Assembly: GCA_025362495.1 (NCBI GenBank)
Contig: JANYGI010000045.1
Span: forward strand, 1 to 64,000
Reading direction: 5' to 3'
From: Byssovorax sp.
GTDB taxonomy: Bacteria; Myxococcota_A; Polyangia; Polyangiales; Polyangiaceae
Length of the DNA stretch: 64,000 nt
Positions 9,054-33,804 of this stretch are shown piece after piece. Every line of letters starts with the position of its first letter. Position 1 is the stretch's first letter. The translations under genes were made by a program, and so were the position numbers. Under the pieces are notes generated by a model, which made no database searches, was not told the origin of the DNA, and saw nothing but the letters and a program-made list of their open reading frames with translations.

Positions 9054-11417
9054 TCACGAGCGGCGACGGCGGCGCGAGGCGAGGAGGCCGAGGCCGGCGA
9101 TCGCGGCGATCGCCGCGCCAGAGTGGCTGTCGTCGCCGCCGGGCACCGAGCAGCCGCAGCCGTTGACGACCTGGTCGTTACCGCCGGTCGCGCTGCCGCC
9201 GCCGACCCCGGCGCCGGTGCTGGCGGTCGTCGAGGCGGCGCCGCCGGCGCCCGCCCCCGTGCTGGTGGTCATCTCGACAGGGTTCGAGGCGACGTCGAGC
9301 GAGAGCTTGGTATAGGCCCCGTCGGTCTCACCGCTGCTGACCACCATCACGTAGGCGTCGACCGCGCCGGCCGGGACCGAGACGATCGCCTGGTACGTCA
9401 TCCCGGTCGCGGTCGCGTCGACGATCACGTCGTCGGCCTGGGCCGCGAGGGGCTTGTACTTGAACTGGATGGGATCCTTGGCGAAGCGCACGATGACCCT
9501 GGGCGTGAAGGGGGTGCCCATCGCTCCTCCGATGCCGCCGCCGCCGACCGCGACCGAGGTGAAGCTCACCGTGAGCGACGTCGCTCCGGCGGGCAGCGCG
9601 TCGTGGAACTGGATGATGCCGGGAGTCCAGCCCTTGGCCGTCTTCACGCCCGTCGTCTGCGTGCCGGGGGCCCACCAGAGGCCCTGGAGATCCTTCGGTC
9701 CGGAGAGCGTCTTGCCGGTGTACTCGAGCTGACGCGAGCACCTCGGGAGCAGACCGCGCGCCGTGAAGGCCGCCGTGAGCTTGTCGGCGACGGGAGCCCC
9801 GAGCGAAGACGCGGTGACGGCGGCGAGGACCAGCTTGGCGAAGTCTTCGTACCCGAGATCGCCTGTCGCCGACTTGTTCATCGCCGTGAACACCGCCTTG
9901 TCGAACTCGCCTTGATCTGCCGGCGTCGCCAGGGCCTTGCGCGCGTCCCAGAGCGAGGCCGAGAACAGCGTCGCGTCCTGGTGGACCTCGCCGCCGATCG
10001 CCGAAGGGCAGGTGTCGGGGTTGGCGAGCGAGCGAATGAAGGGCGCGCCCGGCGCGAAGTCCTGGGTGGCGTACTCGCCCACGTCGGGATCGCCGGTGAG
10101 CGCGCTCGAGAAGTAATCGGCGAGGCCCTCGTTCATCGCCCCGGGCGAGTAGCTCGTGCCGAGCACGTCCATGTGAGGAGTGCCCACCAGCTTGAGTGTC
10201 ACGTTGACGACCGAGTGGGTGAACTCGTGATAGATCACGTCGCCGTCGTACGAGTAGTCCTTGTTGGGGCCCTGGCCGAACCACATCGCCCCGCCGTTGA
10301 TGCCGAACACCGTCGAGAAGATCGGGTTCGAGGGCGAGAAGAAGGCGTTCTGAAAGGGATCGAGCGGCAGGTTGGGATCACCGATCTTGGCGATGTCGAA
10401 GCTCGTCAGCCCCTGCGGGAGCCGCAGGTTCGAGACGGTGGGCAGCGGGGCTCCGGCGTTGACGTCGAGCTTGGAGTCGAAGCCATGGAAGAAGTCGTAG
10501 GCGCGGTTGGCGTGGTAGAACATCGAGATCTCGGAGAACGCGTCCTCCGGGTCCTTGTCCATCGCCGGCGGCGTGAGATAGTCCCCGTTCGCGTCGGGGA
10601 CAGCCGTTTGCAGCAGATCACACGAGTGGACCTTGAGCATGAAGCCCATGAAGTCGACGTCCTTCACGGTCTTCTTGTCGATGCAGTTCTGCGACTGCAC
10701 GAGCGGGTTCTGCAGCGCCGTCTCCCCGGCGCCGACAGGCAGGGTGACGTCGAGGAGCGTCGGTGATTTCACCGGATTCGACGCGTAGACCTTGGCCTTG
10801 TTGAGGGACTCGATCGCGTTGTACGAGAGGACGATCTCGCCGGTCTGGGCGTCGACGATCGTCACGGGCAGGTAGGGAATGCCGAGCATCGGAACGATGT
10901 CGATGGCCCAGGCGAGCCGCGTGCCGTCGGCCGTGGGCCAGAGTACGAGCACGGCGCGCGAGGGATCGTGGGCGATGCGAGCGTGCGCAGCGGCCACGTT
11001 CGCGGCCTGCTGGGCGCCGATCGCCGGCGTCACCGAGGCCGGCAGATCCTCTTCGAGCGCCGACGTGACCAGGGTAGCGACGTTGTCGGCGCCGAAGGTG
11101 ACGGCGACTCCACGGTTGGCGATGAGCACGCCGCGATGAACCTGCGGGAGCTTCACGACGCGCTCGCCGCTGTCGAGCTCTGTCGTGCGCGCCGGCCCGA
11201 AATCGACGGGTTGTGACCACCGGAGCTGCTCGAACGCGACGGCCGGCGCCGCCTTCTCCAGCGCAATCGTGGGAGCGCGCTTGCCCGCGGCGACTCCGGC
11301 CGACGGAAAGCGCCCTGCCCGCAGCGTGAGGCCAGGCTCCGCCGCGACGGCAGCTCCGGCGAGGGTGAGCGCGAGCAGGCCCGCAGACAGAGCGGAGAGG
11401 GGACGAAGGATACGCAT
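9054..11417 (-). CDS. Secreted M36/M4-type zinc metallopeptidase with MYXO-CTERM tail
   Basis: 787 residues. A signal peptide is followed by a fungalysin/thermolysin-type propeptide, then a catalytic domain with H397-E-F-T-H401 and third ligand Glu430 in AMNEGLADYF. This is the gluzincin arrangement of M4/M36 enzymes. A pre-peptidase-C-like beta domain probably follows (about 560-700). The end is a Thr/Gly-rich linker and a MYXO-CTERM signal (CGC at about 752, hydrophobic helix, RRRRR), which in myxobacteria directs cell-surface anchoring or sorting. The enzyme would be exported and auto-activated. The start is supported by AAGGAG about 8 bases upstream of ATG 11417. Confidence 0.88.
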   Translation of the reverse strand: MRILRPLSALSAGLLALTLAGAAVAAEPGLTLRAGRFPSAGVAAGKRAPTIALEKAAPAVAFEQLRWSQPVDFGPARTTELDSGERVVKLPQVHRGVLIANRGVAVTFGADNVATLVTSALEEDLPASVTPAIGAQQAANVAAAHARIAHDPSRAVLVLWPTADGTRLAWAIDIVPMLGIPYLPVTIVDAQTGEIVLSYNAIESLNKAKVYASNPVKSPTLLDVTLPVGAGETALQNPLVQSQNCIDKKTVKDVDFMGFMLKVHSCDLLQTAVPDANGDYLTPPAMDKDPEDAFSEISMFYHANRAYDFFHGFDSKLDVNAGAPLPTVSNLRLPQGLTSFDIAKIGDPNLPLDPFQNAFFSPSNPIFSTVFGINGGAMWFGQGPNKDYSYDGDVIYHEFTHSVVNVTLKLVGTPHMDVLGTSYSPGAMNEGLADYFSSALTGDPDVGEYATQDFAPGAPFIRSLANPDTCPSAIGGEVHQDATLFSASLWDARKALATPADQGEFDKAVFTAMNKSATGDLGYEDFAKLVLAAVTASSLGAPVADKLTAAFTARGLLPRCSRQLEYTGKTLSGPKDLQGLWWAPGTQTTGVKTAKGWTPGIIQFHDALPAGATSLTVSFTSVAVGGGGIGGAMGTPFTPRVIVRFAKDPIQFKYKPLAAQADDVIVDATATGMTYQAIVSVPAGAVDAYVMVVSSGETDGAYTKLSLDVASNPVEMTTSTGAGAGGAASTTASTGAGVGGGSATGGNDQVVNGCGCSVPGGDDSHSGAAIAAIAGLGLLASRRRRRS

Positions 11418-23988: not shown

Positions 23989-24678
23989 GTGAGCAAGCAC
24001 ATCCTCATCGTCGACGACGAAGCGCGCATCCGCGAGGTCGTGCATTACGCGCTGAAGAAAGAGGGGTTCGTCGTCACCGCGGTCGAGAGCGGGACGACCG
24101 CGCTCGACGCCTTCCAGAAGGGCGACGTCGATCTCGTGGTCCTCGACGTCACCCTGCCGGACCTCGACGGGCTCGAGGTCTGCCGCCGGATCCGCAAGAG
24201 TAGCCGCGTGCCGATCCTCTTTCTCTCGGCGCGCGGCGAGGAGATCGATCGCATCATCGGCCTCGAGCTCGGCGGCGACGATTACCTCACCAAACCGTTC
24301 TCGCCGCGCGAGCTCGTCGCCCGCGTCCGCGCCGTCTTTCGCCGCGTCGAAGATCGCGAGCCCCTCCCCGAGGCGCGCGCTTCGCTCTTGATTTACCGGG
24401 GGATCGAGCTCGACACCGATCGTCACGAGGTGCGCTATGCCGGCCAGCGCCTCGACCTCACGCCCACCGAGTTCGGCGTCCTCGGCGCGCTCCTCGAACG
24501 GCCCGGCGTCGTGCTCTCGCGCGCCCAGCTCATGCAGCGCGCCTATCGCTACGACAACCTGATCACCGAGCGCACCATCGACACCCACGTCCGCCGGATC
24601 CGCGCGAAGTTCCGCGGCGCCGGCGGCGATCCGATCACCACGGTCCATGGCATCGGCTACAAGGCCGCGGGCGAGTAA
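23989..24678 (+). CDS. OmpR/PhoB-family response regulator
   Basis: 229 residues, GTG start. The receiver domain (1-115) has the acidic pair D9/D10, phosphoacceptor Asp53 in VVLDVTLPDLDG, Ser/Thr in LFLSARG and Lys in DDYLTKPFSPREL. The C-terminal winged-helix DNA-binding domain (about 130-228) includes LTPTEFGVLGALLERPG and RTIDTHVRRIRAKF. It pairs with the histidine kinase gene 4 bases downstream. The regulated genes cannot be read from the sequence. Confidence 0.95.
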   Translation: MSKHILIVDDEARIREVVHYALKKEGFVVTAVESGTTALDAFQKGDVDLVVLDVTLPDLDGLEVCRRIRKSSRVPILFLSARGEEIDRIIGLELGGDDYLTKPFSPRELVARVRAVFRRVEDREPLPEARASLLIYRGIELDTDRHEVRYAGQRLDLTPTEFGVLGALLERPGVVLSRAQLMQRAYRYDNLITERTIDTHVRRIRAKFRGAGGDPITTVHGIGYKAAGE

Positions 24679-24682
24679 CCCC

Positions 24683-26179
24683 ATGCGCGAGCGCCTCCTC
24701 GGGTGGGTGGGGCGCATCGGCGTTCGCCTCCTCGTCGTCAACCTCCTGGTGCTCCTCGTGCCCATCGCCGGGCTCGAGTTCGCGCGCATCCACGAGCGCC
24801 AGCTCCTGCTCTCGCTCGAGCGCGACATGCGCGATCAAGCGGTGATCGTCCGCGCCCTCTGCGAGGCCGATCTCGGCGCGGGGATCGCGCTCGCCGATCC
24901 GCGCCACGCGGCGATCCTCACCGACGCGGCGCGCCGCACGCGCACCCGCGTTCGCCTCCTCGACGACAAGGGTAGCGTCCTCGCCGACTCGCACGAGAAC
25001 GGCCCGCCCGAGGGCCCCGAGCCGCCGCCGCCGCACGTGCTCCCGCGATCGGTGAGCGAGGTCGAGACGCCGATGCGCGATCTCCCGCGCGACCTCGGCG
25101 ATCCCAGGCTGTGGCCGGACATCGAGGCGCGCACCGAGGTCCGCGCGGCGCTCTCGGGCGTGCCCGGCTCGCACGCGCGGATGCGCGAGCGCGCGCCCGG
25201 GGTGTTCCTCTTCATCACCGAGCCGGTTCGCCACGACAACGCCGTCGTCGGCGTCGTCTACGCGGTGCGATCGACGCGGCCAGTCCTGGTCGAGCTCTAC
25301 CGCATTCGATCGGGTCTCGTGCGCGTGCTCGGCGTCGCCTTCGCGCTCACGGCTCTCGTGACGATGCTCCTCTCGCTCTCGATTTCACGGCCGCTCGGGC
25401 GCCTCTCGCGCGCCGCCAAGCGCGTCGCCGCGGGCGAGCCCGACGTGACGATCCCCGTCTCCGGCGGCGGCGAAATCGAGGAGCTCGGCGCCTCGTTCGC
25501 CTCGATGAAAGAGCGCCTCGACGCCCGGCTCCGCTACATCTCGCAGTTCGCCGCCGACGTCGCCCACGAGTTCAAGTCGCCGCTCACCTCGATCCGCGGC
25601 GCCGCCGAGCTGCTCGGCGAGGGCGCGGCCGACGATCCCGAGGCGCGCGTGCGCTTCCTCCGCAACATCGAGCTCGACGTCGCGCGGCTCGATCGCCTCG
25701 TCTCGCGCTTGCTCGAATTGAGCCGGATCGAAGCCTCGAACGAGGTGATGACCGTCCTCGATCTCGAGGCCCTGCTCGCCCGCGTCGCCGACCGCGGCGG
25801 GGCGATCGAGCCCGCCGTCGTGCTGCGCTACCGCGCTCCTCTGCGCTTCGTCCGCGCGCGCGAGGCCGATCTCGAGACGGCGTTCCGCAACCTCGTCGAC
25901 AACGCCGCGCGCTTCACACCGCCGGGCGCGCGCGTGGAGATCGACGTCGACGGCGATCCGGCGTCGCTCCGGATCGCCATCCGCGACCACGGCGCCGGCG
26001 TCCCCGAGGCGATCCTCCCGCGCATCTTCGATCGCTTCTTCACCACCGCCGCCGACGGCGACGGCACCGGCCTCGGCCTCTCGATCGTCAAGGCCGTCGT
26101 CGAGGCGCACGGCGGCTCGATCGCCGTCGCATGCGGCGAGGGAACCACGTTCACCGTGACGCTCCCGCTCCGCCGCTGA
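24683..26179 (+). CDS. Sensor histidine kinase (HAMP-HisKA-HATPase)
   Basis: 498 residues from ATG 24683, 4 bases after the regulator stop; an upstream in-frame start would overlap the regulator gene. The first membrane helix is at about 12-31. An extracytoplasmic sensor region spans 32-215, and a second helix at about 215-235 leads into HAMP. HisKA has phospho-acceptor His295 in DVAHEFKSPLTSIRG. The ATPase domain shows the N box (AFRNLVDNAARFT), G1 (IRDHGAGVPE), F box (FDRFFTT) and G2 (GTGLGLSIV). The overall plan resembles the ChvG/stimulus-sensing group. Cognate partner of the preceding OmpR-type regulator. Confidence 0.94.
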   Translation: MRERLLGWVGRIGVRLLVVNLLVLLVPIAGLEFARIHERQLLLSLERDMRDQAVIVRALCEADLGAGIALADPRHAAILTDAARRTRTRVRLLDDKGSVLADSHENGPPEGPEPPPPHVLPRSVSEVETPMRDLPRDLGDPRLWPDIEARTEVRAALSGVPGSHARMRERAPGVFLFITEPVRHDNAVVGVVYAVRSTRPVLVELYRIRSGLVRVLGVAFALTALVTMLLSLSISRPLGRLSRAAKRVAAGEPDVTIPVSGGGEIEELGASFASMKERLDARLRYISQFAADVAHEFKSPLTSIRGAAELLGEGAADDPEARVRFLRNIELDVARLDRLVSRLLELSRIEASNEVMTVLDLEALLARVADRGGAIEPAVVLRYRAPLRFVRAREADLETAFRNLVDNAARFTPPGARVEIDVDGDPASLRIAIRDHGAGVPEAILPRIFDRFFTTAADGDGTGLGLSIVKAVVEAHGGSIAVACGEGTTFTVTLPLRR

Positions 26180-27097: not shown

Positions 27098-27514
27098 ATG
27101 GCGAATGAAGAGCTCGTCTCTGCGGTGAAGCGGATCGTTGGCCTGGCCAAGGCGGGCGAGCTCGACTCGGCCTATGTCGGCTACCGCGAGCTGTTTTCGA
27201 GCCCGGCGTTCGCCTCGTACCGCCCCGAAGATCAGCGTCAAGCCTTGCGGCTGATGGTGCTCGCAAAGGTCACGGCGTCGAAGCGCAGCCCGGCGATGGT
27301 CGAGGCGCACCAGAGCGCGATCCCCCCGCTGACCGACCTGGTGAAGAACCTGGCCGAGCCCGGCGACCACGAGCTGCTCGGCATCTGCCACGTCGTCGTC
27401 GGCAACGAAGACGTGGCGCGGGCCATCTTCCGCACCGGCCTCGCGCTCGAGCGCGAGCACAACGCGCAGAGCGATCTGTGCGGCTCGTTCATGAAGCGGA
27501 TCTCCTTCCTTTAG
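27098..27514 (+). CDS. Hypothetical protein, all-helical TPR-like
   Basis: 138 residues from ATG 27098; an upstream GTG at 27077 is possible. The sequence is predicted by eye as six or so amphipathic helices (AVKRIVGLAKAGELDSAYVGYRELF and similar, with regular Ala/Leu/Tyr spacing), reminiscent of one to three tetratricopeptide-like hairpins. No signal peptide or membrane segment is visible. It lies about 130 bases upstream of the ParA-like operon on the same strand. Function unknown. Confidence 0.7.
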   Translation: MANEELVSAVKRIVGLAKAGELDSAYVGYRELFSSPAFASYRPEDQRQALRLMVLAKVTASKRSPAMVEAHQSAIPPLTDLVKNLAEPGDHELLGICHVVVGNEDVARAIFRTGLALEREHNAQSDLCGSFMKRISFL

Positions 27515-27641: not shown

Positions 27642-28457
27642 ATGCACGTCATCGCCATCGCCAGCCAGAAGGGCGGCGTGGGAAAGACCACGATCTCGCT
27701 CAACCTCGGCCTCGCGCTGGCGCGCGCGGGCAACCGAACGCTGATCATGGAGCTCGACGCGCAGGGGAGCCTCGGCCTCTCGCTCGGCCTCGCCGATCGC
27801 GCGCGCCCCGGCATCGCCGAGATCCTCACCGGCTCCGAGACGCTCGACGCCGTGCTCACGCGCACGCGCGATCCGCAGCTCCAGGTGCTCTGCGTCGGCC
27901 GCGTCGATCCCACGACGGTGTCCGGCTTCGAGGACGCGCTCTCTCGCACCGGCGCGATCCAGAGCATGCTGACGAAGCTCGAGGCCGAGTTCGACATCGT
28001 CGTCGTCGACTGCCCCGCGGGGCTCGGCAAGGTGACGACGCGCGCGCTCGAGTCGGCGACGCACGTGATGTCGCCGCTCCAGGCCGAGCCGCTCGCGCTG
28101 CGATCGGTGGGGCAAATCCTCGCGCTGATCGATCGCATCCGCGCCGAGAAGAACGCCAGGCTCGAGCTCCTCGGCATCGTGCTGTCGATGTTCGATCGCC
28201 AGACGCCGGCCTCGCTCGAGGTCGCCGAGACGCTGTGGACCAAGTTTCCCGACGGGATCATCATCGACACGATCATCCCGCGCGACGAGACGTTCCTCGA
28301 AGCGTCGCTGCGCGGCTCGCCGCTCTTGCTGATGCAGAAGCGGCCGCCGCCGCTGGCGCGCGTGTTCGATCAGCTCGCGAGCGACGTGCTCGATCGGATC
28401 CACCCGCAGGGCTCGACCAAGGAAGAGGACAATGCTCCGATCCCGCTCCTCCTTTGA
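27642..28457 (+). CDS. ParA/MinD-family ATPase
   Basis: 271 residues. ATG 27642 is chosen because GGAG lies 6 bases upstream and the protein begins directly with the first strand; longer frames add a basic, unrelated leader. The deviant Walker A motif is K10-GGVGKTT17 with the signature lysine. Walker A' is MELDAQGSLGLSLG and Walker B is IVVVDCPAGLG. This is the dimerising ATPase used for positioning chromosomes, plasmids, flagella or protein clusters. No ParB-like gene is adjacent; instead three coupled genes for Roadblock-like and V4R-like proteins follow, so it may position or switch a protein complex. The C-terminus overlaps the next gene by 26 bases. Confidence 0.9.
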   Translation: MHVIAIASQKGGVGKTTISLNLGLALARAGNRTLIMELDAQGSLGLSLGLADRARPGIAEILTGSETLDAVLTRTRDPQLQVLCVGRVDPTTVSGFEDALSRTGAIQSMLTKLEAEFDIVVVDCPAGLGKVTTRALESATHVMSPLQAEPLALRSVGQILALIDRIRAEKNARLELLGIVLSMFDRQTPASLEVAETLWTKFPDGIIIDTIIPRDETFLEASLRGSPLLLMQKRPPPLARVFDQLASDVLDRIHPQGSTKEEDNAPIPLLL

Positions 28458-29115
28458 CGATCTCGCGGCGGCGATCGCCTCCGCGAGCTCGCTCGAGCCG
28501 GCGAAGCCCGCGACGCCCACGCCCTTCCGCGGCGCGCCGCTCGTCTCGTTCAGCCTCGATCCTGCGCCCCATCCACCACCCGAGGCCGCTCTTCCCGCGC
28601 GCTTCCCCACCGAGGCCGAGATGGCCGTCGTGCGCGCCGCGGCGCCGCGCGATCCCGAGTCGGCGCGGCTCGAAGAGGCCGCGTCGGTCGGCGTCGACAG
28701 CGCGCGGCGCCCGCCGAAGCTTCCCGATCTCTCCGCCGTCGTCAGCCCGATCGTGCGCTGCGAGAAGATCGTCGAGTGGATCATCGAAGCCACCAGCGCG
28801 TCGGACGTGTTCCTCGCCGACGCGTCGGGGATGCCGCTCGCGGGCGCCGTCGTCGACGCCGAGGCGCGGCTCGCCGGCACCGGCGTCGTCGCTTCGGCGA
28901 TCGCGCAGCTCGCCACGTCGATCCCCGGCAACACCTCGGCGCTCTTCGAAATGCACCTCGGCGAGGGGCCGTTCTTCCAGCTCATCGGCTTCCAGGTCGC
29001 GGGCGCGCTCTACCTCGTCGGGCTCTCGCGCAGCTCGCCGCTGACGCCGCGGCAGGCGCACGCCATCCGCCTCGCGTGTCGTCACGCGCTCGGAGAGGTC
29101 GTGCCGACCACATGA
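28432..29115 (+). CDS. Roadblock/LC7-like domain protein
   Basis: 227 residues. Residues 1-100 are Pro/Ala-rich and probably disordered. Residues ~105-225 look like a Roadblock/LC7 (MglB-like) domain: a long helix (CEKIVEWIIEATSASD), the strand turn VFLADASGMPLAGAVVD, a second long helix (VVASAIAQLATSIPGN) and the strands LFEMHLGEGPFFQLIGF and LYLVGLSR. Roadblock proteins dimerise and regulate NTPases, as MglB does for MglA. Here the partner NTPase is ParA-like, encoded immediately upstream with overlapping ends. The next gene starts within its stop codon (ATGA). Confidence 0.68.
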   Translation: MLRSRSSFDDLAAAIASASSLEPAKPATPTPFRGAPLVSFSLDPAPHPPPEAALPARFPTEAEMAVVRAAAPRDPESARLEEAASVGVDSARRPPKLPDLSAVVSPIVRCEKIVEWIIEATSASDVFLADASGMPLAGAVVDAEARLAGTGVVASAIAQLATSIPGNTSALFEMHLGEGPFFQLIGFQVAGALYLVGLSRSSPLTPRQAHAIRLACRHALGEVVPTT

Positions 29116-29945
29116 ACGCCGCGCCGCAAGGCCCTCATTTGCCGGTGGATGTCGCGCCGATCGCGCTCGACGGGCTCGCGTACGGGATCGACTACCTCGA
29201 CGCGATCCTGGTCTTTCACCTCGGCGACGCGCGCCTTCATGCGTCGTGGGTTCGACCCGACGCGGGGCTGCGACCCGAGGACGCGGTGGGCACGCTGCGC
29301 GACGCGTATCGCGTCTGTCAGTTCGCGGCGCGCCGCATCGCGGGCGGCACCGACCGCCGCGGCGAGCGTGTCGATCCGGTGCTCACGATCGAGCTCCCTC
29401 ACCGCGTCGCGCTGCTGCGCTGCATCCGGTCGCACATCGTCGCGTGCCTCTTCGAGACGACGATGCCGCTCGGCATGGCGCGCCTGATCGCCGCGCGGAT
29501 CGGCGACGCGCTCGATCCCGAGCTGCCGCTCACCGAAGACGCGGCGTCACCTGCGGCGGCGCCCGCGCTCGGCGTCCGCGTTCCGCCGCTCAACGCGGCG
29601 GCGACGACGGCGCTGCATGTGCCTCGCGTCAACGAGGCGACGAGCGACGACGCGTCGGATCGGGGGCCGTCCACGCTCGCGTTCGGCGCCAGCCGTCGGC
29701 GCTCGCTTCCGCCCGCGCGCGCGACGCCGAGCGAGCAAGGGCGCACGCGCAGCCTGCTCGCGTACCTCGAAGCGCACGCGCCGGAGCCTCACGTCGTGCG
29801 CACGCGCCTCGCTCTCCGCGCGGGGATAAGCCTCGTCGCGCTCGAGCACCCCGAGACGCTCGGGCCCGAGGCCATCGTGCTGATCGAGACCGCGGTCGAA
29901 GACATTCTCGGCCAGGGCCGCGCCGAGCTCGCGAGGATCACGTGA
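29112..29945 (+). CDS. Putative second Roadblock-like protein of the ParA operon
   Basis: 277 residues, ATG within the stop of the previous gene. Residues ~20-150 show an alpha/beta pattern compatible with a Roadblock/profilin-type fold: LDAILVFHLGDARLHASWV, a helix (LRDAYRVCQFAARRI), VLTIELPHRVALLRCI, HIVACLFE and the TTMPLGMARLIAARIG helix. A low-complexity linker (about 150-215) separates a helical tail (LLAYLEAHAPEPHVVRTRLALRAG, LIETAVEDILGQGR). I do not recognise a named family; the Roadblock resemblance is by eye. Its GTGA overlap with the next gene indicates strict co-expression. Confidence 0.6.
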   Translation: MNAAPQGPHLPVDVAPIALDGLAYGIDYLDAILVFHLGDARLHASWVRPDAGLRPEDAVGTLRDAYRVCQFAARRIAGGTDRRGERVDPVLTIELPHRVALLRCIRSHIVACLFETTMPLGMARLIAARIGDALDPELPLTEDAASPAAAPALGVRVPPLNAAATTALHVPRVNEATSDDASDRGPSTLAFGASRRRSLPPARATPSEQGRTRSLLAYLEAHAPEPHVVRTRLALRAGISLVALEHPETLGPEAIVLIETAVEDILGQGRAELARIT

Positions 29946-31234
29946 CCCCGTTCGGCCTCCTCGTTCGCCCCCTCGCGCCGCAGGGGCTGCTCAGCCTCGG
30001 CGATCAGCTCGTCGTCCACGCCTGCCATCACCACGCGCTCTTCCTCGATCAGACGGTCTCCGACGCGCTCGGCGGCGAGGGCTGGGCGGTGCGCCGGCAG
30101 GCCGCGTTCGAGTCCGCGCACGCGCTGATCGCCTCGTTTTGCAGCGATTTCGGCGTCACCGATCCGGTCGAGCGGCTCGACCTCGCGACCGAGCTCTTCA
30201 CGGCGATGGGGCACGGTCGGCTCACGTTCGATCTCACGGCCGAGGGGGGTGCCGTTCACGGCCACGGGCTCCATCACGGCGCGAGCTTCGTCGAAAAGTA
30301 CGGGGCGCTGATCAAGAACCGCCGGCCGGTCGACGCGTTCACGGCGGGCTTCATTTCGGCTGCGGCGAGCCTGGCGTACCCGTCGGACTGGGGCACGCTC
30401 GAGGCCGACGAGACGACGTGCGTGGCCCAGCTCGCGGCGCGGCCGCCGGAGTGCATCTTCACGCTCACGCGTCGGCCCGAGCGGCCGCGCTTCGGCGCCG
30501 TCGTCACGCGCGCGCTCGTCGAGCAGATCCCGCTCGCGCCGGGGGACGACGCCGATCGGCCCCGCCACACGCTGCGGCCCGCGGCCGATCGCGCGGTGAC
30601 CGATCTCGCGCGCCTCCTCCACGGCGCTCCGGTCGATCACGACGGCGTGACCCGCGTCTTCGGCGTCCGCCTCGCGCTCGTGCCGGTGAGCTACCTCGGC
30701 CAGATCACCTACGACACCGTGCACCTCATCGAGAAGCGCTCTCCCGAGCTGTTCCCGCTCGTGGGGGCACTGGTCCGCGAGGCTGCGCAGACGGGCGCGT
30801 TCCACCTGCTCGGCGGCGTCCTCGCGTCGGCGGCGTGGAAGGCCGAGCACGGGCCCGTATCGACCGATCCCGAGGCGCGACTCGACACCTTGATTGGCCT
30901 CACCCGCGCCCTCGGCTGGGGCGCCTTCCAGGTCACGGAATTCGCTCCGGGCGAGGCGCTGGTGCTCGCGGCGAAGGCGACGCACGAGAGTGCCTATTAC
31001 GCCGTCCGACACGGCAACACCGTCCGCAACCGCCTCTTCTTCCAGCAGGGCGTGGCCCTGGCCCTGATGCAGATCCTCCATCGCGTCGACTTCACGGCAG
31101 AAGAGCCGATCGCGAAGGGCGCCTACGACGCTCTCTTCAAGAGCGGGCAGCGCTTCCACGTGGACGAGACGCGCTCCCCGCTCCGCGGAGATCGGGTGTG
31201 CGAGGTCGTGGTGACGGCGCTGGCCGAACGCTAG
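29942..31234 (+). CDS. Hypothetical protein with possible C-terminal V4R (4-vinyl reductase-like) domain
   Basis: 430 residues, GTG start inside the preceding stop. Soluble and rich in His near the N-terminus (HACHHHALF, HGHGLHHG). The last ~170 residues (RSPELFPLVGALVREAAQTGAF onward), with LIGLTRALGWGAFQVTEFAPGEALVLAAK, resemble the V4R/haem-NO-binding-like ligand domain, in which a small hydrophobic ligand or metal is bound. The Cys residues that bind metal in some V4R domains are not evident. V4R domains are known to co-occur with Roadblock-family proteins in prokaryotic NTPase switch systems. It would be the ligand-sensing component of the operon; this is inference. Confidence 0.6.
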   Translation: MTPFGLLVRPLAPQGLLSLGDQLVVHACHHHALFLDQTVSDALGGEGWAVRRQAAFESAHALIASFCSDFGVTDPVERLDLATELFTAMGHGRLTFDLTAEGGAVHGHGLHHGASFVEKYGALIKNRRPVDAFTAGFISAAASLAYPSDWGTLEADETTCVAQLAARPPECIFTLTRRPERPRFGAVVTRALVEQIPLAPGDDADRPRHTLRPAADRAVTDLARLLHGAPVDHDGVTRVFGVRLALVPVSYLGQITYDTVHLIEKRSPELFPLVGALVREAAQTGAFHLLGGVLASAAWKAEHGPVSTDPEARLDTLIGLTRALGWGAFQVTEFAPGEALVLAAKATHESAYYAVRHGNTVRNRLFFQQGVALALMQILHRVDFTAEEPIAKGAYDALFKSGQRFHVDETRSPLRGDRVCEVVVTALAER

Positions 31235-32910: not shown

Positions 32911-33804
32911 TCACTCGGTGATGCAGTCGGGCGCCGCGCTCGGGTCGGCCACCCAGGTCGCAAGGCGCGCGGTTCCGGCATCGCCCCACGCGTCGTGGGC
33001 GAGCTGATTGAAGCGACACCACTCGTGCCGCGTCTGCCGGGTCGCCAGCGCCTTCGCGGCAAAGTGCTGCGCCGTGCGACCGGGAATGGTGCTCTTGTCC
33101 TTGTTGAGCTCTGCATGCGTCATCGATGCTGCGGTCGGGCAGAAGTCGCCCGGCTCGTAATCGACCGTGCCCGAGACGAGCCCGTGGGCGGTCACCTTCT
33201 TGCGACGCACCGTCACGATCGCGTACTTCGGGTACGACGCATCGTCGTCGCGGTACAAGGCCGTCTGAGGCGGCGGATTGCCTTGCACGATGACGAAGCC
33301 CGATGACGGGATCGTGGAGTAGGGAGTGAGCGCGGGAAACGCGGTGAGCGACTGACTCACGAGCACGTCGCCGCCGAGCTCGATCCAGTTCGTGTGAGCG
33401 TAGAAGTCCTGCACGCCGTGGAGCGAACGGGAGAATGCCAGCATGGCCTGGGCATCTGCCGCCGGCAGCGGGTTGCTCGGGTTCAGCGCTTGCACCGCGG
33501 CGGCCTGGTTCGCAGCGACGAGGGCGGCTCCTCCCGTGAAGTTGCAGTCATCGAAGTGGGCAGAATTGAGGAGCGCGAACTCCACGTCCGTCGACACGTC
33601 GCCGGCCACCAGCGCGTTGAGCACGGCGGGATTCAGGAACGCCAGCGCGGTGGTGGTGATCTCCTCGTGGTTCGGCTCCCCGGGCGAAGTCGAAAACTCA
33701 TCGGCCCGCTCCCCGATCGCCTCTGTTGTTCCAGGTTCGCCGACGCAGCCGACCGTCAGCGCCAGACCCATGATTGCCAATCCGAGCACAGCGTGGTTCT
33801 TCAT
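32911..33804 (-). CDS. Lipoprotein of the zinc phospholipase C / HET-C-like group
   Basis: 297 residues. The signal peptide ends in the lipobox L-T-V-G-C20. The catalytic-looking core has N-H-E-E (45-48), HFDDC near 83 and SLHGVQDFYAHTNW (about 127-140). The last matches the H-x3-D-x3-H zinc-binding pattern of bacterial phospholipase C and HET-C relatives, which hydrolyse phospholipids. A helical Asp/His region at the C-terminus (HEWCRFNQLAHDAWG) may add further ligands. It would act outside the cell or in the periplasm. The gene stands alone, with 230 and 600 bases of flanking non-coding sequence. Confidence 0.75.
   Translation of the reverse strand: MKNHAVLGLAIMGLALTVGCVGEPGTTEAIGERADEFSTSPGEPNHEEITTTALAFLNPAVLNALVAGDVSTDVEFALLNSAHFDDCNFTGGAALVAANQAAAVQALNPSNPLPAADAQAMLAFSRSLHGVQDFYAHTNWIELGGDVLVSQSLTAFPALTPYSTIPSSGFVIVQGNPPPQTALYRDDDASYPKYAIVTVRRKKVTAHGLVSGTVDYEPGDFCPTAASMTHAELNKDKSTIPGRTAQHFAAKALATRQTRHEWCRFNQLAHDAWGDAGTARLATWVADPSAAPDCITE

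Follow-up and report, generated by a model that had tools for sequence, protein, structure and literature searches.

In bacteria and eukaryotes alike, small GTPases are classically regulated by proteins with the Roadblock and V4R/TRAPP folds, while the classical positioning motors of bacteria are ParA ATPases. Here we describe a four-gene cassette in which these parts are encoded together. It occupies positions 27642-31234 (+ strand) of a 64,000-nucleotide stretch of DNA from Byssovorax sp. (GenBank assembly GCA_025362495.1, contig JANYGI010000045.1), referred to below as the window, which lies in contig C190 of a 10.8-Mb genome. The cassette consists of the genes for a ParA ATPase, two Roadblock proteins (RbA and RbB) and a protein with two V4R domains in tandem, and this composition is accompanied by a conserved gene order, overlapping genes and co-inheritance.

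Orphan ParA proteins are known to use the unrelated adaptors McdB, TlpT and ParP (PMC9178275). The cassette resembles the corresponding systems (McdAB, PpfA-TlpT and ParC-ParP) in pairing a deviant Walker A ATPase with a dedicated non-ParB partner gene, with no ParB co-encoded. Unlike them, it has two Roadblock proteins and a tandem V4R protein as partners, it has no known cargo, and the DNA-binding arginines of its ParA are only partly kept. Within the same phylum, the Myxococcus MglA-MglB(-MglC) system likewise encodes Roadblock proteins alongside a P-loop NTPase switch. In the cassette, however, the NTPase is a ParA ATPase rather than a Ras-like GTPase, and a putative V4R sensor and two diverged Roadblock proteins are added.

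The same folds recur in two known complexes. TRAPP, in which longin and V4R-type subunits jointly regulate a GTPase (PMC10933270), combines V4R/Bet3-fold with Roadblock/longin-fold subunits, and Ragulator contains Roadblock pairs. The likeness is one of fold types only: the cassette is bacterial, its V4R domains lie in tandem on one chain, and its nucleotide switch is an ATPase instead of a Rab or Rag GTPase. The PoxR/MopR/DmpR sensors share with the cassette the N-terminal V4R half and, among the cassette relatives, a C-x7-C zinc-type motif; the cassette protein nevertheless lacks a fused AAA+ activator and DNA-binding domain, and it has a second V4R half. Finally, the BcsQ/BcsD pair of cellulose synthesis places a ParA-like ATPase and a protein of V4R/TRAPP-like fold in one machine. 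The cassette ParA falls under the BcsQ cut-off, no cellulose genes were seen beside the cassette, and Roadblock proteins do not belong to the BcsQ/BcsD system. A search of open-access full text, extended to DUF4388 and orphan ParA adaptors and leaving subscription papers and preprints outside its scope, returned no described system combining V4R, Roadblock and ParA; the first-pass annotation of the window, which knew of no system of this composition, is not contradicted by that literature.

Re-reading of the open reading frames confirmed the coordinates and proteins that had been annotated for the four genes (Table 1). An overlap at every junction had also been reported, and this holds, the number of junctions being three and not four: a 26-base overlap between ParA and RbA, followed by an ATGA and then a GTGA junction. 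A scan for sigma-70 promoters and terminators yielded nothing exceeding chance.

Table 1. Features of the cassette and of the adjoining gene (positions in the window)
Feature	Coordinates	Strand	Description
ParA	27642-28457	+	Soj-type deviant Walker A ATPase, 271 residues, no N-terminal helix-turn-helix, acidic C-terminal tail with NAPIPLLL end
RbA	28432-29115	+	Roadblock/LC7 protein by family profile, 227 residues
RbB	29112-29945	+	Predicted Roadblock-fold protein, 277 residues
V4R protein	29942-31234	+	Tandem V4R, 430 residues, GTG start
ParA 3'/RbA 5' overlap	28432-28457	+	26 bases, read in both frames
RbA N-terminal motif	28432-28491	+	MLRSRSSFDDLAAAIA..., kept ahead of variable linker; candidate ParA-activating peptide
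RbA Roadblock domain	28744-29112	+	C-terminal, about residues 105-227
RbB Roadblock domain	29151-29540	+	Residues 14-143, from AlphaFold2 model
RbB C-terminal helical domain	29727-29939	+	Residues 206-276, confident in model, after a disordered stretch, without assigned family
N-terminal V4R domain	29942-30490	+	Residues 1-183, PoxR/MopR/DmpR-like
Putative zinc motif, first V4R	30410-30454	+	E157-x2-C160...C171
C-terminal V4R domain	30575-31231	+	Residues 212-430, closer to TRAPP Bet3, with a degenerate zinc motif (Ser412)
Neighbouring 138-residue gene	27098-27514	+	Conserved, TPR-like by eye, no Pfam match

The neighbourhoods of 23 cassettes were read within the Polyangiaceae, a myxobacterial family that includes Minicystis rosea (G038, 16.0 Mb), and all 23 had the order ParA-RbA-RbB-V4R. 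Conservation extends beyond the strain and the family, with four complete cassettes found outside the latter, two in the same taxonomic order (L153 and L169) and two in the same class (L156, whose RbA is a weak match, and L157). Pieces of cassettes lie at contig ends in three further loci (L154, L155 and L161). All cassettes found fall within one phylum; the probe beyond it was a single contig scan with the V4R protein of the window, a scan able to reach only close relatives. Occurrence is patchy, with V4R matches in 29 of 98 family genomes and in 35 of 379 genomes of the phylum.

The cassettes form two clades, of which clade 1 includes the window and clade 2, with a shorter RbB, includes a second full cassette of the host genome (L052; G000 contig C159, 34000-47500). 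In most clade 2 cassettes an upstream gene overlaps the ParA start and encodes a protein with a conserved C-terminal TPR region preceded by DUF4388 or further TPRs, and in some a gene of about 104 residues follows V4R. The second host cassette has both, a DUF4388-TPR gene overlapping the ParA start and a 103-residue gene after V4R. Across the four genes the window cassette shows 57-82% identity to that of Minicystis, compared with 21-37% to its own paralogue. All four genes are therefore nearer to Minicystis than to the paralogue, indicating that cassettes move or duplicate whole. Protein distances correlate across all gene pairs (r 0.61-0.93, with 0 of 2000 permutations as high), a correlation to which shared species history contributes. 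Judged from these comparisons, the four genes are passed on together as one unit.

The ParA protein is, by its sequence profile, a single-domain Soj-type ATPase. It matches Pfam AAA_31 with an E value of 2.5e-31, and a search with the family profile retrieves ParA/Soj structures with E values of 1e-38 to 1e-44 (Soj itself at 6.5e-39), these being the nearest solved relatives. The intact deviant Walker A motif recognized in the first-pass annotation (KGGVGKTT) is present together with all catalytic residues; in the alignment the signature Lys10, the P-loop Lys15, Asp39 and Asp123 are invariant in 23 of 23 relatives. Assignment as BcsQ was rejected, since TIGR03371, the best NCBIfam match, scored 92.7 bits where the cut-off is 157.85, and assignment as MinD also fell below its NCBIfam cut-off. 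The annotation had further noted that no ParB-like partner is encoded. Indeed, none lies beside the cassette, and the only ParB_N match of the genome (C213:68632) adjoins a different ParA (C213:69078).

RbA of the window has no Pfam Roadblock match of its own, and a search of the PDB sequences with the RbA profile returned nothing. At the level of the family, 9 of 20 members match PF03259 (best E 5.1e-5), one of them (G083) above the gathering score, and profile-profile comparison with MglB-type Roadblock proteins gave 60% probability and an E value of 9e-5 against a poorly diverse reference. By its family profile RbA is thus a Roadblock/LC7 protein. Its layout is a conserved N-terminal motif followed by a long variable linker and then the Roadblock domain. 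Clade 1 has the motif (M)ARSRSSFD; clade 2 has either MxxPSLSWID or MxRSAYLPD.

The RbA motif begins within the ParA gene. In 23 of 23 cassettes the RbA start precedes the ParA stop by 26 bases or slightly more, in the same phase, which makes this an unusually constant overlapping-gene junction. The acidic ParA tail, ending in P-I-P-L-L-V in clade 1, is dual-coded with the first residues of RbA. The conserved ends of the two proteins are not independent evidence because both frames share the same bases. In clade 2 the RbA side of the junction (S-L-S-W-I-D) is more constant than the ParA side, and the RbA motif extends beyond the overlap.

For RbB, none of 23 members matches PF03259, the window protein included, and the RbB profile gave weak matches to MglB chains (E 0.05-1.7). 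An AlphaFold2 model built from 23 sequences has a pLDDT above 90 over most of the Roadblock domain, which shows the Roadblock order of helix, two strands, helix, three strands and helix. Its best structural matches, nearly all of them Roadblock-type proteins, are led by Ragulator p14 (5y39_G; Z 15.9, 2.0 Å over 116 residues), an archaeal Roadblock protein (Z 15.6) and MglB (Z 14.2). Profile-profile comparison of RbB with RbA gave no mutual match, and the assignment of RbB to the Roadblock fold therefore rests on the predicted structure. With the third protein of the cassette predicted to have this fold, the annotation of one clear and one probable Roadblock/LC7-like protein is borne out, for RbA by family profile and for RbB by the model. 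The C-terminal helical domain of RbB is strongly conserved and holds several of its most conserved residues. Every RbB relative in the host genome falls in a cassette.

The fourth protein had been described as V4R-like at its C terminus. The V4R assignment stands, its confinement to the C terminus does not: the model (pLDDT 89, pTM 0.91) contains two V4R domains in tandem, and profile comparison of the two halves gives a mutual match (E 8e-6). The window protein matches PF02830 at E 0.0028, under the gathering score, and 18 of 23 family members match it (best E 1.1e-10); a search of the PDB sequences with the V4R profile found nothing. In structural comparison the N-terminal half resembles the PoxR/MopR/DmpR sensors (Z 14-15, 2.8-3.4 Å over 169-176 residues), the C-terminal half resembles TRAPP Bet3-type subunits (Z 10.5), and the match to BcsD has a Z-score of about 10. 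The zinc ligands of DmpR are Cys151, Glu172, Cys177 and Cys185 (PMC7264223). At the putative zinc motif of the cassette protein, Glu157, Cys160 and Cys171 are kept in 22 of 23 members, and most relatives have the spacing E-x2-C-x7-C. At four loci (L053, L058, L060 and L172) the V4R halves are in separate open reading frames, as if two single-domain proteins had replaced the tandem.

Relatives of the tandem V4R protein also occur in another family of the phylum, where they are encoded immediately after a PAS-histidine kinase-receiver protein (L158-L160); in two of these loci (L159 and L160) the small gene of about 104 residues known from clade 2 comes after the tandem V4R protein. The tandem V4R protein may accordingly be a sensor serving more than one output.

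We interpret the four genes as an orphan-ParA positioning or polarity switch with a ligand-sensing, TRAPP/Ragulator-like V4R-Roadblock adaptor, a reading to which we assign a probability of about one half. ParA would take the place of the GTPase, the V4R protein would be the ligand sensor, and the unit as a whole would act as the switch. In such a scheme ParA would bind ATP, dimerize and hold a surface, either the nucleoid or another track. In ParB's stead the adaptor would be formed by the RbA/RbB Roadblock pair and the tandem V4R protein, the fold types of the TRAPP core. Myxococcus ParB activates ParA via a short N-terminal peptide with an arginine (PMC12462528), and by analogy RbA, with its conserved basic N-terminal peptide, flexible linker and dimerizing fold behind, is the natural candidate for a ParB-like activator: its peptide, carried on the long linker, would trigger ATP hydrolysis by ParA as that of ParB does. 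Binding of a small hydrophobic ligand or a metal by the V4R pair may make the action of the adaptor conditional. The pattern of ParA, and whatever cargo or polarity depends on it, would then track a chemical signal. In clade 2 the upstream DUF4388/TPR protein may tie the unit to a client. More tentatively, the Roadblock pair and tandem V4R could constitute a dedicated ligand-controlled activator of ParA, in which the RbA peptide replaces that of ParB, and thus an ATP-driven counterpart of the GTPase-regulating assemblies.

Several points weigh against this interpretation. We infer the adaptor complex with ParA from folds and gene order, and the physical complex, the direction of regulation, the ligand, the cargo and the positioning function alike belong to the interpretation. 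The RbA motif has no sequence likeness to that of ParB, and dual coding could account for part of its conservation. No cargo gene recurs beside the cassette. Among the residues used by Caulobacter ParA for DNA binding are R195 and R224, which are known to vary among DNA-binding members (PMC7229837). In the cassette family all 23 proteins have lost the R224 equivalent, and at the R195 position 10 have Arg, nine Gln and four Lys. Nucleoid binding by ParA is therefore not assured. The R221 equivalent (Caulobacter numbering) is Arg in 20 of 23.

The lost arginine is also a point for the strongest alternative, in which the cassette is a switch for sensory signalling instead of positioning: V4R would bind the ligand, the Roadblock pair would relay the signal, and the ATP state of ParA would control gene expression or an enzyme, loosely comparable to the tie between BcsQ and cellulose synthesis. 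BcsQ is the best NCBIfam match of ParA, though far under its cut-off, and BcsD has a V4R/TRAPP-like fold. The hybrid histidine kinases adjoining distant tandem V4R relatives fit the sensor role in either case, supporting this part of the proposed switch, but the output may be signalling rather than positioning. However, the cassette contains no conserved output gene, and the dimer and catalytic residues of ParA are those of positioning ATPases; we consider a signalling switch less likely than a positioning one.

Still less probable in our view is that RbA, RbB and V4R regulate an MglA-type small GTPase encoded elsewhere, with ParA merely placing that complex. Small GTPases have established partners with the Roadblock and V4R/longin folds (PMC10933270), and bona fide Roadblock genes occur elsewhere in 93 of 98 family genomes. 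Yet no Ras-like motif set was found around the 23 cassettes, using a simple pattern for which there was no positive control and no accompanying GTPase profile search; moreover, all RbB relatives of the host are in cassettes, and RbA is translationally tied to ParA. Chance adjacency of unrelated genes, for which only the patchy distribution speaks, is ruled out by the order kept across families, the kept overlaps and the paralogous cassette in the same genome.

At one cassette (L047) the region upstream of ParA carries, at a distance of about 1.2 kb, a stand-alone Roadblock gene (10563-10829, - strand) that scores above the cut-off of PF03259, an arrangement seen at this cassette only. In the window, the 138-residue protein encoded just upstream of ParA has a strongly kept C terminus (SDLCG..MKRIS) and is widespread in the family. 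It was considered as a fifth core part, being adjacent and 79% conserved in clade 1. It is not counted as core because many of the 45 family genomes (of 98) that have it carry no cassette. Further upstream, at 23989-26179, visual inspection of the translations pointed to a response regulator and histidine kinase pair, for which no connection with the cassette was found. Downstream, 32911-33804 on the - strand encodes a lipoprotein-like protein matching the VWA7 N-terminal domain (PF25107). Anti-phage defence was rejected as a function, PADLOC having given only a spurious ATPase-motif match.

The existence of a conserved operon joining ParA with Roadblock and V4R proteins suggests that regulatory folds of this kind can serve ATPase switches too, and it bears on the origin of Roadblock/V4R assemblies. 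Parts familiar from GTPase switches may thus be at work in a polarity or positioning switch driven by ATP, and the cassette provides a compact bacterial system for spatial organization that includes a candidate chemical sensor of its own.

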